DNA of 49,580 nt from an uncultured Ectothiorhodospiraceae bacterium. Lineage in GTDB: Bacteria > Pseudomonadota > Gammaproteobacteria > XJ16 > Halofilaceae. Under the pieces are notes generated by a model that was not told the DNA's origin, did not search any database, and was given only the letters and a program-made list of their open reading frames with translations. This document shows positions 22,875 to 31,523 of the stretch, piece by piece (within the stretch, counting starts at the first letter, position 1; the number at the start of each line of letters is the position of its first letter). The translations under genes and the position numbers were made by a program. The stretch is taken from positions 1 to 49,580 of the forward strand of contig CAJXKK010000020.1 in the NCBI GenBank assembly GCA_913055615.1. Direction: 5' to 3'.

Positions 22875-23186
22875 GGCGTGCGCCCGGTCTCCGGTTCAGC
22901 CGGGCCCCGCCCCGGGACCGCCGGCGACGGTGTCCAGCTGCAGGCGGTGAGGAAAAAGCGTGGTCGCGGGGAGAACCCACTTGGTCATCGGGCGGTTGCA
23001 TGCGGGTGCAAGAGGCCACGGGCGCCGTTCTGCGGGCCGCTCAGACCGGGGGGCGGTCAGCCAGTGTAGCGCCCCGCATCCGATTGGCTGCAATCCAATG
23101 CTTGGCATCGTGGACGTTTTGGGCGACCCTCACGCTCAGACTGATCGGTGTCGGGCCGGTCCATCACGCATTTGGGGGGCGCGGTC
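22875..23186. other. Gap of 312 bases before the OhrR-type gene
   Basis: No supportable gene. A small inverted repeat ATTGG-N7-CCAAT at 23083-23099 lies about 90 bases before the regulator start and could be an operator, but it is short. A GC-rich inverted segment just after the PH-protein gene may end that transcript. Confidence 0.35.
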
Positions 23187-23648
23187 TTGACCGAACACGA
23201 AACCACGGACAACTCGCTCGAACTCGGCAATCAGCTGTGTTTCAGCGTCTATTCGACGGCGCACGCTTTCACCCGGCTCTACACCAGCCTGCTGAAATCG
23301 CTGGACGTGACGTACACGCAGTACCTCGTCCTGCTCGTCCTCTGGGAGGAGGATGGCCCGACGGTGAAGGCGCTGGGCGAACGGCTATCGCTCGATTCCG
23401 GGACACTGACGCCCTTGCTGCGGCGGCTCGAAGAGGCGGGCTATGTCCATCGGGTGCGCGCCGAGCGCGATCAGCGCTGCATGCACGTCTACCTCACGGA
23501 ACATGGCCGTGGCGTTCGCCCGGACGTGCACGACGTACGCCGCTGCGTATTTGAGGCCACGGGCCTGAACTTCGATGAGCTGAAAGACCTGCAGGGGCGT
23601 CTGGAGACATTGCGCTCCGCGCTCGACTCGACCGCCCAGCGGGGGTAA
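23187..23648 (+). CDS. ohrR: OhrR-type MarR regulator (thiol-based peroxide sensor)
   Basis: About 153 residues. It has the OhrR hallmark NQLCFSVYS with the reactive Cys18, then LDVTYTQYLVLLVLWEEDG, LGERLSLDSGTLTPLLRRLE (recognition helix) and the wing VRAERDQRCMHVYLTEHG. Extra cysteines at positions 98 and 120 suggest the two-cysteine mechanism known for Xanthomonas OhrR, in which an oxidised N-terminal Cys forms a disulfide with a C-terminal one. The family represses organic hydroperoxide resistance genes until oxidised. No ohr gene is adjacent; the downstream genes point to glutathione turnover. The start may be TTG at 23187 (after GGGGGGCG) or GTG at 23148. Confidence 0.82.
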   Translation: MTEHETTDNSLELGNQLCFSVYSTAHAFTRLYTSLLKSLDVTYTQYLVLLVLWEEDGPTVKALGERLSLDSGTLTPLLRRLEEAGYVHRVRAERDQRCMHVYLTEHGRGVRPDVHDVRRCVFEATGLNFDELKDLQGRLETLRSALDSTAQRG

Positions 23649-23724
23649 GCCCGCCGATCGATCTTGCCGGTACCGCGGCATTCCTCCATGCTGCCTGACT
23701 AACCCGATGACGAGGAAAAGCCCG

Positions 23725-25116
23725 ATGCTGGAGCCGGTGCTCAAACGGATCGACGACGGTATGGATGCCTCCATCGAACGCTGGTCCGAACTGCTGCGAA
23801 TCCCGAGTGTGAGCACGGACCCGGCTTACGCTGACGACGCCCGCCGCGCCGCGCACTGGTTGATAGAGCAGTTCGAGGCGCTCGGTTTCACTATGGAACT
23901 GCACGAGACCGAGGGTCACCCGGTCGTGCTCGGCCATCACCCCGGACCGGGTGGTGATGTGCCCCACCTGCTGTACTACGGGCACTACGACGTGCAGCCG
24001 GCTGATCCGGTCGAACTCTGGGATTCGGGACCGTTCGAGCCGACGGTGGTCGACAGCGTTCACGGCAAAAAAGTGGTTGCCCGCGGTGCGGTCGACGACA
24101 AGGGCCAGCTGATGATGTGGGTCGAGGCCCTGCGCGCGTGGCAGGCGGAGCATGGCACGCTGCCGGTGGAGACCACCGTCCTGCTCGAGGGCGAAGAGGA
24201 GATCGGCAGCAAACACCTGCGGCCGTTCCTCGAGGCGCAGCGCCCACGGCTCGCGGCAGCGGATGTCTGTGTCGTCAGCGACACCTCCATGTGGGACGTG
24301 GATACCCCCGCGATCACCTACAGCCTGCGCGGCCTGCTGTATACGGAGATCACCTGCCGCGGACCGTCGCACGATCTGCACTCCGGTTTCTACGGCGGGG
24401 CGGTGGTCAATCCGCTGAATGCGCTGGCACGGGTACTCGCGGATCTGCACGACGACAATGGCCGCATCCGCATCCCCGGTTTCTATGACCAGGTGCTGGA
24501 ACCGGGAGAGAGCGAGCGCGCCGCCTGGGAAAGCCTGGATATGGACGAGGCGGCGTTCCTCGAAGGGGCGGGCGTAACCGCCGGCGGCGGCGAGCGCGAC
24601 CGGAGCCTGCCGGAGCGCATCTGGACCCGGCCGACCGGCGATGTGAACGGCCTCTACGGGGGCTATACCGGCGCCGGCGCCAAGACGGTCATCGCGACCG
24701 AGGGCACCGCCAAGGTGAGTTTCCGGCTCGTCCCCGAGCAGGATCCGGACGCGATTGCGGAGGGTTTCCGTCGTTTCCTCGACGAACACACGCCCGCCGG
24801 CTGCAGCTGTGAACTCACGATCCACTCCGCCGCCCCGGCGATCCGGATCGATCCGGAGTCGGCATGGCTGCGCACCGCGTGCGCGGCGATGGGCGATATC
24901 TACGGGCGCGAGGCCGTGCCGATCGGCTGCGGCGGCTCCATCCCGATCGCCGCATGGGCGCGCGGGATCCTCGGTATCGACACGCTGCTCATGGGCTTCA
25001 GTCTCGACGACGATGCGATGCACAGCCCGAACGAGAAGTTCGAGATCACCTGTTTCGAGCGCGGCATGAAATCGCACGCGGCCCTGCTGGCGCGGATCGC
25101 GGAGGGCCGGGTCTGA
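23725..25116 (+). CDS. M20-family metallodipeptidase (Cys-Gly dipeptidase-like)
   Basis: A 463-residue M20 hydrolase. The two-zinc site is visible: His and Asp in YYGHYDVQPADP, Asp in ARGAVDDKGQL, the Glu-Glu pair in LEGEEEIGSKHL, Asp in CVVSDTSMWD, and His in MHSPNEKFEI near the C-terminus. The dimerisation lid follows YTEITCRGPSHDLHSGFYGGAVVNP. This layout matches the DUG1/CNDP2 branch that cleaves dipeptides such as Cys-Gly. ATG at 23725 is preferred because GAGGAAAAG precedes it; ATG at 23707 is possible. It lies between OhrR and ChaC, which would supply Cys-Gly. Confidence 0.88.
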   Translation: MLEPVLKRIDDGMDASIERWSELLRIPSVSTDPAYADDARRAAHWLIEQFEALGFTMELHETEGHPVVLGHHPGPGGDVPHLLYYGHYDVQPADPVELWDSGPFEPTVVDSVHGKKVVARGAVDDKGQLMMWVEALRAWQAEHGTLPVETTVLLEGEEEIGSKHLRPFLEAQRPRLAAADVCVVSDTSMWDVDTPAITYSLRGLLYTEITCRGPSHDLHSGFYGGAVVNPLNALARVLADLHDDNGRIRIPGFYDQVLEPGESERAAWESLDMDEAAFLEGAGVTAGGGERDRSLPERIWTRPTGDVNGLYGGYTGAGAKTVIATEGTAKVSFRLVPEQDPDAIAEGFRRFLDEHTPAGCSCELTIHSAAPAIRIDPESAWLRTACAAMGDIYGREAVPIGCGGSIPIAAWARGILGIDTLLMGFSLDDDAMHSPNEKFEITCFERGMKSHAALLARIAEGRV

Positions 25117-25142
25117 GGTTGGCGGGCGCGCGCGGGCAAGGC

Positions 25143-25619
25143 ATGGCGGAGGGTGTCCACACGGCGCCCGGTTTCACGGGCGCACCTGCGGTTACGTATC
25201 GACTGTATATCCGGGTTCCCCGGCGGGTGTCCATCGAACCCGGGCGACTCGGGCGTTATGTCCTCGACAGCGGCTGGTACGTTTACACCGGCAGTGCGCG
25301 GCGCAACATGGCGGCCCGGCTGCGCCATCACCTTGCCGTCAACGATACGCGCCGCTGGCACATCGACTGGTTGCTGGGCGCTGGTCTGGGGCAGGTAATG
25401 CACATACGACTCGACACGGAGTCGGAATGCGCCATCAATGCGCGGATCGATGGCCGTGTCGTGATTCCCCGCTTCGGCGCAACCGATTGCCGCCATCGCT
25501 GCGGCAGTCATCTGCTGTGGCTCGGGACCCGGCGACCGCCCGTGGTTCCGCGCGATCCGCGTCGGCGCCGCACGCGCTCGGCGGTGTACCCGGCCGAACG
25601 CTGCGCGGATGCGGCATGA
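25143..25619 (+). CDS. DUF123 (GIY-YIG-like) protein
   Basis: A 158-residue protein. Core: YRLYIRVPRRVSI, YVLDSGWYVYTGSARRNMAARLRHHL and RRWHIDWLLG, then CAINARIDG and CRHRCGSHLLWLG. This is the DUF123 fold, related to GIY-YIG nucleases (YVYTGSA in place of GIY-YIG core). Archaeal members are sometimes fused to endonuclease III, so a DNA-repair link is plausible; catalysis is unproven. The stop overlaps the ChaC start (ATGA at 25616), so the two are translationally coupled, and a DNA glycosylase follows. Confidence 0.8.
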   Translation: MAEGVHTAPGFTGAPAVTYRLYIRVPRRVSIEPGRLGRYVLDSGWYVYTGSARRNMAARLRHHLAVNDTRRWHIDWLLGAGLGQVMHIRLDTESECAINARIDGRVVIPRFGATDCRHRCGSHLLWLGTRRPPVVPRDPRRRRTRSAVYPAERCADAA

Positions 25620-26335
25620 ATCGGATCGAGGCGCGACCCGCTCGCGGCATCACCCGTGAAGTGCTCGAAAACGACGCCGTCCGCGCGGCCATCAGCGAGA
25701 ATCATCCGGAGGTTCCGCTGCTGTCCAATGAGACGCTGCGCGCATCGATGGAGCAAACACTCGAGCAGCGCCCGGTCGAGGTGGATATGCAAGGCGTCTG
25801 GCTGTTCGCCTACGGGTCACTCCTGTGGAATCCCTGTATCGAAGTGGCGCAGCGGTGTCCGGCCCGGCTGTACGGATACCACCGGGATTTCCGCCTGAAG
25901 CTGACGTACGGCCGCGGCACGCCCGAAACCCCGGGGCTGATGCTGGGACTGGTCCCGGGCGGGTCCTGTCGCGGTGTGGCGCTGCGCGTACCCGCCAATG
26001 TACTGAAACGCGAGCTTATGCTGGTCTGGCGACGGGAGATGCTCACGGGCGTCTACGTGCCGCGTTGGCTCACGCTGAAAACGCCAAACGGCGCTCTGCC
26101 GGCGATCGCGTTCACCGTGGATCGCAGCCACCACTGCTATTGCGGTCGTCTGGGGGAAGACGACACGGTGGCCCTGATGGCCACGGGGCAGGGGTTGCTG
26201 GGGACGGCCCGGGATTATCTGGAGAGCACCGTCGAGCACCTTGATTCCGAACGGATTTACGACCGCCGCCTGCACCATCTGCGCGCGCGTGTCAGGCGGT
26301 ATCGGGCGGGAGGTGGATCGTTTGTCGCGCGATGA
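25616..26335 (+). CDS. chaC: Glutathione-specific gamma-glutamylcyclotransferase, ChaC family
   Basis: A 239-residue protein with the ChaC signature WLFAYGSLLWNP near residue 62, ARLYGYHRDFRL, and GTPETPGLMLGL in which the Glu is the expected general acid/base. ChaC enzymes cleave glutathione to 5-oxoproline and Cys-Gly in the cytoplasm. The ATG at 25616 overlaps the previous stop; the frame is open further upstream but that region codes for DUF123. An N-terminal extension of about 55 residues precedes the fold. Its product Cys-Gly is a natural substrate for the dipeptidase encoded two genes upstream. Confidence 0.92.
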   Translation: MNRIEARPARGITREVLENDAVRAAISENHPEVPLLSNETLRASMEQTLEQRPVEVDMQGVWLFAYGSLLWNPCIEVAQRCPARLYGYHRDFRLKLTYGRGTPETPGLMLGLVPGGSCRGVALRVPANVLKRELMLVWRREMLTGVYVPRWLTLKTPNGALPAIAFTVDRSHHCYCGRLGEDDTVALMATGQGLLGTARDYLESTVEHLDSERIYDRRLHHLRARVRRYRAGGGSFVAR

Positions 26336-26942
26336 ATTGCACGCGCGCTTTCTCGCGATCGCTGCCGGTTTCTCGCCCGATCTGCGGGCGGCTATGGAGC
26401 GGGTCGGCCCGCCCGAACCGCGTGGTCGCGGCGATCAGCCGGTGGGGCGCTTCCTTGCACGGGCCGTGGTCGGCCAGCAGCTGTCGACGCGCGCGGCCGG
26501 CACGATCTGGTCCCGGGTCGAGGCGATGGGGCATGCCGAAGGGATCGAGATCCCCGCCGGCCTGACCGAGGATCGGTTCGAGGCGTTACGCGCCTGCGGG
26601 GTCTCGGGCGGCAAGGCCCGCGCACTGCTCGCGATCCGCGCCGCGCAGGCGCAGGGGTGGCTGGACGGAGCGGCGCTGGCGGCGCTCGATCACGGCGAGC
26701 GCTCGCGCCGCCTGCGTACGATCCGCGGGGTCGGCCAATGGACCTGCGATATGGTCTCGATCTTCCACTGCGGCGATGAGGATGTCTGGCCCGAGACGGA
26801 CGTCGCCGTACAACGCACATTCGTGGATCTGATCGGCCGCCGCCGCAAACCTGCGCGCGCCGCCGCACGATTCGCACCACACCGCTCCTGGCTGGCGCGC
26901 TACATGTGGCGCATCACCGATGCCGACCCGGACGGTGACTGA
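26322..26942 (+). CDS. DNA-3-methyladenine glycosylase, AlkA-like (HhH-GPD)
   Basis: About 206 residues. HhH-GPD elements are clear: FLARAVVGQQLSTRAAGTIW, LRACGVSGGKARALLAI, LRTIRGVGQWTCDMVSIFH (the hairpin) and the catalytic Asp in WPETDVAVQRTF. A final segment HRSWLARYMWR is typical of this group. It excises alkylated bases such as 3-methyladenine. TTG at 26322 is preceded at good distance by GGGAGGTG inside the end of chaC; a longer frame from 26241 lies in chaC. It is the last gene of the run. Confidence 0.87.
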   Translation: MSRDELHARFLAIAAGFSPDLRAAMERVGPPEPRGRGDQPVGRFLARAVVGQQLSTRAAGTIWSRVEAMGHAEGIEIPAGLTEDRFEALRACGVSGGKARALLAIRAAQAQGWLDGAALAALDHGERSRRLRTIRGVGQWTCDMVSIFHCGDEDVWPETDVAVQRTFVDLIGRRRKPARAAARFAPHRSWLARYMWRITDADPDGD

Positions 26943-27754: not shown

Positions 27755-29836
27755 TTACATCGCCATGGAGGAAAAGTCGTAATCGCGTTCCGTGCCGGGC
27801 TCCTGCAGGAACTCTCCCTGGATCATGTCGGGGCCCAGCCCCCAGAGCACCGACAGGCTGCTCGCGTCCGTCACGCCGGGGCAGATCGTCTTCTTGCCCT
27901 CTTCGGATGCCTGCGCGGCGATCTCGCGGATGGCCTGCTGGTTCTGTGCGTTGTGCTGGAGGTTATGCGTGAATTCGTCGTTCACGCGCAGATAGTCCAC
28001 CGATACGTGGCGGGTAACCTGGAACGGGTCGGCACCATGGCCGAATCCGGACAGGCACACGCGGCAGCCGATCGTATGGACGGCCTTCGCGAACGCGCTT
28101 GCCTGCTTGATCCGGTTCGCGGCGGCCCCGGCGTCGACCTGGAACACCACTGCGCCCTCAGGCAGGTTGACCTGCGTGACGCGGTCGTGGATCCATTTGA
28201 ACAGGCCGGGATCGTCGAATGCGTGCCCGGATAGCGGGACGAAGAACACCGATTTGTCATCCAGCTTGAGCTGTTCGACCAGGGCCTTGAGGGCGTTGAG
28301 CACAGTCCATCGATCGAGCCCTTTGGACATGCCGGTACGCTCTGCAGCGGTCAGCAGATCCGGATCCTCGACCGGCCGGCCAGAGTCGTCGAGCACGCGG
28401 AAGACGACTTCGTAACGGGGGACGCTCTCGCCCGTAAGACCCACGATCGGCTCATAGAGCAGCTGCAGGCGCTCATCGCGCAGTACTTTGCGGATGCGGT
28501 CGACCCATTGCTGGTCGATCTGCTTCTGTGACAGCTCCCCCTCTTTCGGCTGGTCGATACGGTGCGCGTCCGGTCCGGCCTTCACGGCCTCCTTCCATGC
28601 GCGCTCGGCCCGCGAAAGGATTTCGTTGGGGTCCGTCGTGCTGCCGTCGATCCGCGCAATCCCGATCGTGGCCGTGACGCCGATCGATCTCCCGTTGACG
28701 TCGCAGATGTAGTCCTTGATCGCGCCCCGGACCCGGCCGGCGAGTTCGTCCAGCGCCTGCTGATCGGAGGTCGGTGTCAGCACGGCGAAGGTCGCGCCGT
28801 CCAGTCGTGCCACTATGTCTTCGTCGCCGAAAGTGGCCTGCAGGACCCCCGCGATGTCGCCGATCACCTGGTCGGAGCCAAGGATGCCGACGCGGTCCTT
28901 GACCGACCCGAAATCGTCCAGCGCCAGTTCGAGGAGGCTGGATTCGCCTTCCTCGCGCTCGGCTCGGGTGAGTGCGTCCTGCAGCTGTCCCATGAAGTGC
29001 TGGCGGTTGAACAGGCCGGTAACGCTGTCGCGCTGGCTGAGCAGGTTGAGCTGTTTCTCCAGCTCTTCCGTGTCGCCCTGATGGCGGATGATGATCTGAC
29101 TGCAGGCCTCGCCCTCGATGGATGCGCGCGAGAATTCCACCTCGGCCTGGAAATGACTGCCGTTGGCCTCCTGCAGTGACAGCTCGAGGGTCCCGACGGC
29201 CTGGTCACTGGTGGAGTAGTTGCGCAGGAATTCCTTGAGTTTCTTCTGGTCCTCCGACTGGACCATGTCGATCATGGGCATGCCCTCCACTTCCTCGAAG
29301 GCGTCATAACCGAACAGGGTCAGGTAGGCATCATTGGCGAGTACATGCATGCCGTCGTGGATGTAGGCGATGGCATCGCGCGAGGATTCCATCAGTGCCC
29401 GGGCCCGCTGTTCGCTCTCGCGGTAGGCGGTGCTGAGCCAATGCGCCTGGCGGCGCACGCGTACGCGATCCAGTTCGCGGATGATCACATGGCGCATCTG
29501 CTCCTGATCGCCGGGCTGGATGCGCTCGGCGGCACCCATCGCCAGCGCCTTGCCGACGCTCGGATCCGCGTCCTCGCCGAAGGCGATCACCGGCACGAAC
29601 AGCTCATGCGCCCGGATCGCCTCGATCGTGTCGCCCAGCGACAGGTCCATCGCCGCGAGCGAATGCATCGCCACATCGACCGTGCCTTTCGCGAGGGCGG
29701 CGTCGAGTTCTTCCCGGTCTTCGGCGCGGACCACCTTCACGGCATAACCGGCCGGTCGCATCATCGAAGTGACGAACTCGGCGTCATCGAGCGCGTCGCT
29801 GATCATCATCAGGCGGATTGTCGATTGGTTGTTCAA
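27755..29836 (-). CDS. FimX-like degenerate REC-PAS-GGDEF-EAL protein
   Basis: A 693-residue protein. Residues 5-120 have a receiver-like fold but the phosphoacceptor position reads VDVAMHSL, without Asp. Residues 140-255 are a PAS domain. Residues 265-425 are a GGDEF domain in which the signature is RLDGATF (about 344-350). Residues 440-685 are an EAL domain in which ExLxR is EVVFR (476-480), and DDFG is LSGFGHG (596-602). Loss of both catalytic sets while keeping the fold is characteristic of FimX, a cyclic-di-GMP effector controlling type IV pili. So it should bind rather than make or break the nucleotide. The start is TTG at 29836, overlapping the epmB stop (TTGA), which implies translational coupling. 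Confidence 0.85.
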   Translation of the reverse strand: MNNQSTIRLMMISDALDDAEFVTSMMRPAGYAVKVVRAEDREELDAALAKGTVDVAMHSLAAMDLSLGDTIEAIRAHELFVPVIAFGEDADPSVGKALAMGAAERIQPGDQEQMRHVIIRELDRVRVRRQAHWLSTAYRESEQRARALMESSRDAIAYIHDGMHVLANDAYLTLFGYDAFEEVEGMPMIDMVQSEDQKKLKEFLRNYSTSDQAVGTLELSLQEANGSHFQAEVEFSRASIEGEACSQIIIRHQGDTEELEKQLNLLSQRDSVTGLFNRQHFMGQLQDALTRAEREEGESSLLELALDDFGSVKDRVGILGSDQVIGDIAGVLQATFGDEDIVARLDGATFAVLTPTSDQQALDELAGRVRGAIKDYICDVNGRSIGVTATIGIARIDGSTTDPNEILSRAERAWKEAVKAGPDAHRIDQPKEGELSQKQIDQQWVDRIRKVLRDERLQLLYEPIVGLTGESVPRYEVVFRVLDDSGRPVEDPDLLTAAERTGMSKGLDRWTVLNALKALVEQLKLDDKSVFFVPLSGHAFDDPGLFKWIHDRVTQVNLPEGAVVFQVDAGAAANRIKQASAFAKAVHTIGCRVCLSGFGHGADPFQVTRHVSVDYLRVNDEFTHNLQHNAQNQQAIREIAAQASEEGKKTICPGVTDASSLSVLWGLGPDMIQGEFLQEPGTERDYDFSSMAM

Positions 29837-30915
29837 GGCGTTGAAGGGCCTCCCGCCGAGTCCAGCGTGGGCGTTGTCATGCCGTCACGGCACCCGCTCC
29901 AGTCATGCGCGAGCGGGGTCTTCCCGGGCCGGCCGGCCTGCTCGACCACGAGCCGCGGTACCAGGTAGCCGGGAAGAAGGGCCGCAACGCCGGCCATGAG
30001 TCGACGGGCCTCTTCGGACCCTGTTTCGAATTGGGCAGCCCCCCGCACGGGATCCAGCATATGCAGATAATACGGCAGCACGCCTGCCGCGAACAGCCGA
30101 CGCGAGAGTTCCGCCATGGCTTGCACTTTGTCGTTGACCCCCCGCAGCAGAACCGCCTGATTCAGTACCATCGCCCCCGTGGCGCGCAGACGCGCTGCGG
30201 CTGCGCCCACGGACGCGTCGATTTCGTTGCCGTGATTCGCATGCAGCACGACGACCGTCGCAAGACGCGTGCCACTCAGCCAGTCACAGAGCGCGTCGTC
30301 GACGCGCTCGGGCAATACGACCGGCAGCCGCGTATGGATCCGCAGGGTCCCGACGTGGGGGATGGCCTCGATGCGCTCGACCAGCCCGGCGAGCTTGTGG
30401 TCGGATAGCGACAGCGGGTCGCCGCCGCTGAGGATGACTTCCTCGATACTGTCGTCGCCGGCGATATAGTCGATCGCGGCCTGCCAGTCGTCCGGCCGCG
30501 GATTCGCATCGGCGTAGGGGAATTCGCGCCGGAAACAGTAGCGGCAATGGATGCCGCAGGCCCCGGTCGTGACCAGCAGCACGCGGCCATGGTACTTGTG
30601 GAGTACCCCGGGGCGGATCATGGCCGCACGGTCGCCGACCGGATCCGGGCCGAATCCGGGGACCTCCCGTCCCTCGGCCGCGCTCGGCAGGACCTGTGCG
30701 AGCAGCGGGTCGTGGGGGTCGCCGCGGCGCATGCGGGCGGCGTAGCCGCGCGGTACCCGCACCGGGAAGCCGGCATCGCCGGCGGCGTCGCCAGGGAGAT
30801 CGAGCAGCGACCGCAGTTCGCCCGCATCCCGGATCGCCATTGCGAGTTCACGTTGCCATTCCGCCACCGTGGCGGGCGCGGGGTCGTTTTTTTGCTTGCG
30901 GGTTGCCGGTATCAT
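29833..30915 (-). CDS. epmB: EF-P-(R)-beta-lysine 2,3-aminomutase EpmB
   Basis: A 360-residue radical-SAM enzyme. The cluster motif is CGIHCRYCFRREF; EEVILSGGDPLSLSD follows, and RIHTRLPVVLP and LLRGVNDK are further family segments; YYLHMLDPVRGAAQF lies near the C-terminus. EpmB turns L-alpha-lysine into (R)-beta-lysine, which EpmA attaches to EF-P. The ATG at 30915 is 38 bases from the divergent efp start; a longer frame would overlap efp. The stop overlaps the FimX-like start. Confidence 0.95.
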   Translation of the reverse strand: MIPATRKQKNDPAPATVAEWQRELAMAIRDAGELRSLLDLPGDAAGDAGFPVRVPRGYAARMRRGDPHDPLLAQVLPSAAEGREVPGFGPDPVGDRAAMIRPGVLHKYHGRVLLVTTGACGIHCRYCFRREFPYADANPRPDDWQAAIDYIAGDDSIEEVILSGGDPLSLSDHKLAGLVERIEAIPHVGTLRIHTRLPVVLPERVDDALCDWLSGTRLATVVVLHANHGNEIDASVGAAAARLRATGAMVLNQAVLLRGVNDKVQAMAELSRRLFAAGVLPYYLHMLDPVRGAAQFETGSEEARRLMAGVAALLPGYLVPRLVVEQAGRPGKTPLAHDWSGCRDGMTTPTLDSAGGPSTP

Positions 30916-30953
30916 AGCCGTCCGATTTTTCCCGGCTTCCCGACGAGGGTCAA

Positions 30954-31523
30954 ATGGCGACATACAGTACGAACGAGTTCAAGTCAGGCCTCAAGATCAT
31001 GCTGGACGGTGATCCCTTCCAGATCCTCGAGAATGAGTTCGTCAAACCGGGCAAGGGGCAGGCCTTCAACCGGGTCAAGGTGCGCAACCTCAAGACCGGC
31101 CGCACGGTCGAGCGCACGTTCAAGTCCGGCGATTCCGTGGAGGCCGCCGACGTGATCGATACCGAGATGACCTATCTGTACTCGGATGGCGAGTACTGGC
31201 ACTTCATGGACCCGAACTCGTTCGAGCAGATCGCCGCCGACGCGGCCGCCATGGGCGATGCCCACAAATGGCTGCGCGAGCAGGACACGGTCGAGATGAC
31301 GCTCTATAACGGCGAGCCGCTCACGGTCACACCGCCGAATTTCGCCGATCTGCGCATCGTCGAGACCGATCCCGGCATCCGCGGCGATACCGCCCAGGGC
31401 GGCACCAAACCGGCCAAGCTGGAGACCGGCGCCGTGGCGAAGGTGCCGCTGTTCGTCGAGGAGGGCGAGGTGATCCGGGTCGATACGCGCAAGGGCGAAT
31501 ACGTCAGCCGGGTGAAAGAATAA
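30954..31523 (+). CDS. efp: Elongation factor P
   Basis: A 189-residue protein with the three-domain EF-P layout. The modified lysine is Lys34 in VKPGKGQAF, the loop recognised by EpmA. Domain II starts near [15 protein letters not shown] and domain III near [15 protein letters not shown], ending [14 protein letters not shown]-like. EF-P rescues ribosomes stalled at polyproline. Presence of Lys34, epmA and epmB in one locus shows beta-lysylation. Confidence 0.97.

Follow-up and report, generated by a model that had tools for sequence, protein, structure and literature searches.

Enzymes of the ChaC family convert glutathione to Cys-Gly and 5-oxoproline, and Dug1-like enzymes hydrolyse Cys-Gly. 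In Francisella, ChaC has been shown to participate in glutathione use (PMC7340319). The COG1833/DUF123 proteins are predicted GIY-YIG nucleases, of which the members from Methanococcales are fused to endonuclease III, and a role for them in base excision repair has been put forward as a proposal, without demonstration (PMC1564403). Relatives of all of these proteins are encoded side by side at positions 23187-26942 of a 49,580-nucleotide stretch of DNA (the window) from an uncultured Ectothiorhodospiraceae bacterium, where an initial annotation had described a five-gene cassette headed by an OhrR-type regulator. Comparison within the genus makes it fairly probable that the stretch instead comprises two unrelated units, an operon of M20, DUF123, ChaC and AlkA-like genes that is kept at genus level, and an OhrR gene that became adjacent to it by rearrangement.

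Gene identities were assigned through Pfam and NCBIfam profile searches and sequence searches of the PDB, and three genomes of the genus were compared, namely that of the window (G000), its nearest relative (G002) and a third member (G001). Reading frames and family matches bear out the presence, strand and order of the five genes as first described, all on the + strand (Table 1), and the Pfam, NCBIfam and PDB matches support the identities given to them. Overlaps or near-overlaps had also been claimed for the last three genes; the DUF123 and ChaC frames do overlap by ATGA (25616-25619) and those of ChaC and the AlkA-like gene by approximately 14-23 nt (26313 or 26322 to 26335), and both overlaps are found again in G002. 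Substitution patterns between G000 and G002 reveal purifying selection on all five genes, with dN/dS values of 0.06-0.14. The idea of a horizontally acquired island was rejected, as G+C content stays level along the window and synteny of the unit with G002 is kept. Elsewhere in the window, an EpmB gene lies start-to-start with an elongation factor P-like gene (29833-31523, overlapping at 30954-30963), an order also seen in G002.

Table 1. Features of the OhrR and M20-DUF123-ChaC-AlkA region (window coordinates).
Feature	Position	Strand	Remarks
Alpha/beta hydrolase gene, probable decayed 5' remnant	22919..22994	-	Aligns to G002 (L075 7920-7991)
OhrR-type MarR regulator	23187..23648	+	Neighbour, probably outside the operon; LGNQLCF holds the peroxidatic Cys, Tyr pair conserved
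M20 upstream region	23659..23724	+	Promoter-like TTGCCG-N17-CATGCT; shared with G002, in which OhrR does not immediately precede M20
M20 metallodipeptidase	23725..25116	+	Nearest solved relative is yeast Cys-Gly dipeptidase Dug1; retains the metal-ligand motifs
DUF123 / COG1833 GIY-YIG-type protein	25143..25619	+	Cys/His cluster at C-terminus; PMC1564403
ChaC glutathione-specific gamma-glutamylcyclotransferase (predicted)	25616..26335	+	PF04752
AlkA/Mag-like HhH DNA glycosylase	26313..26942	+	Start GTG 26313 or TTG 26322; catalytic Asp in TDVAVQR

The M20 protein, for which orthologues are present in both G001 and G002, combines the M20 fold and its di-metal ligand motifs with a best PDB match to Dug1 (4g1p, E=1.7e-56), and this Dug1-like affinity supports the suggestion that the enzyme is of the Cys-Gly type; the next-best matches are carboxypeptidase 4mmo and non-specific dipeptidases 2zof. 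Its start is more likely the ATG at 23725 than position 23707, because alignment to the G002 and G001 proteins begins only at the former, and the gap between OhrR and M20 is therefore 76 nt. Inspection by eye shows TTGCCG-N17-CATGCT within this gap, conserved upstream of M20 in G002 as well, so that M20 plausibly has a promoter of its own, with this as the candidate element. A consensus sigma-70 scan found no promoter and did not list the element.

The remaining members of the operon belong to known families. The DUF123 protein matches PF01986 (E=3.7e-18) and contains CRHRCGSH, thus having both the domain and the C-terminal Cys/His cluster when compared with the described family (PMC1564403). 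ChaC matches PF04752 (E=2.9e-29) at 102.8 bits against a gathering score of 21 and possesses the YGSL motif. The G002 ChaC (L076:5724-6440) has a stop a few residues before the end of the window protein and is otherwise intact. A second ChaC copy, 37% identical, is located elsewhere in G000 (L080, contig C28, genome position 23284-23784), and the window ChaC is therefore not the sole one. The AlkA-like protein has its best PDB match in 2yg8 (E=1.2e-17), and the PDB alignment recovers both the HhH region and the catalytic Asp; against the NCBIfam AlkA equivalog NF007641 it scores 32 bits, below the cut-off of 229.

The regulator is most similar in the PDB to Xanthomonas OhrR (2pfb, E=4e-39), and alignment to that protein places an N-terminal peroxidatic Cys and a Tyr pair within a MarR fold. 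Its score of 144 bits lies under the cut-off of 200 for the equivalog NF052638, a Vibrio-named model of a narrower group, and is compatible with an OhrR-type sensor. The position of Xanthomonas Cys127 is occupied by Glu, and the other Cys of the window OhrR is absent from the G002 orthologue; a 1-Cys mechanism is therefore likely, and the protein is probably of the 1-Cys type. A second OhrR, 57-58% identical to that of the window, is encoded in G000 (contig C49, L078:8867-10163) and in G002 (L079), in both cases divergently from a glutathione S-transferase gene. The sequence GCACACGATCCAATTGTGTGC between the two genes is perfectly conserved from G000 to G002, with a palindrome score reached by 38 of 300 shuffles, and is likelier to be an OhrR operator than any sequence in the window.

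It had been suggested that OhrR, as a sensor of organic peroxide, governs both the breakdown of glutathione and alkylation repair in a single system. The peroxidatic Cys and Tyr pair required of such a sensor are intact, OhrR and M20 share a strand across the short gap, and no Ohr above the family cut-off was found in any of the three genus genomes, so that the window OhrR needs another target. Neither a linked ohr gene nor an inverted-repeat operator was found for the window OhrR, however: the best 21-nt palindrome upstream of ohrR has 14 positions and was matched by 273 of 300 shuffles, and that upstream of M20 has 10 positions and was matched by all 300, neither being beyond chance. The candidate element upstream of M20, and the arrangement in G002 described below, also count against control by OhrR, and we regard the one-system model as very improbable.

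OhrR is 93% identical in amino acid sequence between the window and G002, and the order MltD, PH-like, OhrR is retained there, followed by approximately 10 kb and only then by M20-DUF123-ChaC-AlkA. The intervening DNA carries a MacA/MacB-like export set, CocE-type hydrolases and an ATP-grasp ligase, names that, the ligase excepted, come from reading the sequences. The window matches the end of the G002 OhrR gene up to 23646 and the region upstream of G002 M20 from 23659 onward, leaving a junction of 12 nt. The G002 OhrR gene lies divergently from one for an alpha/beta hydrolase with a lipoprotein-like signal, and this hydrolase is the likelier OhrR partner in G002. No match to it was found anywhere in the G000 genome; a short segment upstream of the window OhrR is the probable decayed start of the gene, which is intact in G002. 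On this reading OhrR would be a peroxide-sensing repressor, and its partner at the site, to judge by G002, would have been the divergent hydrolase gene. The window's genome would have lost this gene, and the 10 kb would be gone or would never have arrived, so that OhrR would adjoin M20 by rearrangement. Separate transcription of OhrR and the M20 unit, like the direction of the rearrangement, is inferred. Against the two-unit reading, it draws on three genus genomes only, G002 could itself carry an insertion between an OhrR and an M20 gene that were once adjacent, and the same-strand gap of 76 nt permits read-through from OhrR in the window's species.

In the third species, M20, an aspartyl protease, GloA, DUF123 and ChaC occupy one stretch in other surroundings (G001, L077:7466-13285), and upstream of them, on the opposite strand, lies GshA. 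Searches of that genome detected no match to OhrR and none to AlkA. M20, DUF123 and ChaC are hence together in all three genus genomes, joined by AlkA in two of them. Of the cassette first proposed, the M20-DUF123-ChaC-AlkA operon stands, with its overlaps conserved in two species, whereas OhrR is probably not part of it, being some 10 kb away in G002 and without a detectable relative in G001. GshA is found in all three genomes, and glutathione is therefore probably made in the genus.

The survey was extended to relatives of ChaC, DUF123 and M20 in the class, in the phylum and in the GTDB species collection. It took in 26 ChaC loci of the GTDB collection of 84,980 species (flanks of up to 6 kb), 30 ChaC loci from the class (3 of them second copies within the genus), 30 DUF123 loci from the class, 24 from the phylum besides the window, and 5 M20 loci; removal of the window's own locus and the three second ChaC copies left 112 outside loci. 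Another cassette gene was present at none of the 112, most of which extend only about 1.5 kb per side, so that looser linkage would escape detection, and OhrR was directly upstream of the four genes in neither G001 nor G002 nor any of these loci. As a positive control, the same test applied to the window's DUF123 locus retrieves the cassette there. For the ChaC genes of G015 and G053 the inspection covered longer stretches, and in G015 a GloA-like gene lies approximately 5 kb away. In two genomes of one other genus (G095 and G215), ChaC and DUF123 share a contig approximately 14-17 kb apart, which may be chance. All of the gene families are known, and the gene order is local to the genus.

That M20-DUF123-ChaC persists in differing surroundings may reflect a genuine functional link between DUF123 and ChaC, a point against the reading preferred here. 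An alternative explanation holds that the genus possesses a true glutathione/electrophile module, in which DUF123 and AlkA might repair DNA damage by methylglyoxal-type electrophiles. The order M20-DUF123-ChaC is indeed kept despite different flanks, and in G001 it includes GloA, with GshA nearby; yet GloA and GshA lie away from the unit in G000 and G002, no such grouping appears among the 112 outside loci, and the case rests on three genomes. We consider this module unlikely, and the loose glutathione theme of G001, with GshA and GloA nearby, is the sole mildly interesting remainder. Still more speculative is the proposal that the company kept by M20, DUF123 and ChaC (GloA and GshA in one species, AlkA in two) reflects a DUF123 GIY-YIG nuclease that repairs electrophile DNA adducts and so couples thiol turnover to repair, which we hold to be improbable. 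It is equally doubtful that M20 is a general dipeptidase or carboxypeptidase within a chance grouping of four genes lacking shared function: its next-best PDB relatives and the absence of linkage outside the genus would fit, but Dug1 is the top match, and ChaC and M20 stay together through the change of surroundings in G001.

With OhrR set apart as a neighbour, the four-gene operon probably breaks down glutathione. By its predicted activity, ChaC would split glutathione into 5-oxoproline and Cys-Gly. Hydrolysis of this dipeptide would fall to the Dug1-like M20 enzyme and return cysteine and glycine, a step qualified by the fact that general dipeptidases and carboxypeptidases are also found among Dug1-like sequences. 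The glycosylase and the GIY-YIG protein, which would be co-translated by way of the overlapping frames, probably act in base-excision repair, and any link with glutathione is hypothetical. The unit joins ChaC and a Dug1-like dipeptidase, covering both steps of glutathione breakdown by the gamma-glutamylcyclotransferase route, in one bacterial operon, and it offers a handle on the DUF123 family, whose function is a prediction. The locus also illustrates how gene loss and rearrangement can bring a stress regulator next to an operon unrelated to it, mimicking a regulon.

Compared with described systems, the window OhrR matches Xanthomonas OhrR (2pfb/2pex) over its full length and shares the reactive Cys equivalent to Cys22 and the Tyr pair, but differs in having no ohr gene beside it. 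The M20 protein matches the Dug1/CNDP2 dipeptidases (4g1p, 2zof) over its full length and keeps their metal-ligand motifs (HYD, DD, EEE, SD and MHS); unlike them, it falls in the bacterial subfamily NF006579/NF006053, and its Cys-Gly preference is putative. The AlkA-like protein aligns with AlkA/Mag-type glycosylases (2yg8, 3s6i) at the HhH region and catalytic Asp, but is short (approximately 209 aa) and under the NCBIfam AlkA cut-off. ChaC retains the YGSL motif and the REM-TG catalytic-Glu region of its family (Francisella FTN_0599, PMC7340319; PDB 5hwi/5hwk, 6k95), whereas an N-terminal extension of approximately 55 aa ahead of the ChaC domain is unlike known ChaC; the alignment to the solved structures covers the core only, and the activity is predicted. 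Finally, the DUF123 protein shares PF01986 and the family-typical His/Cys-rich C-terminus with the COG1833/DUF123 GIY-YIG proteins (PMC1564403) and, in contrast to the Methanococcales members fused to endonuclease III, is a stand-alone bacterial copy beside ChaC.
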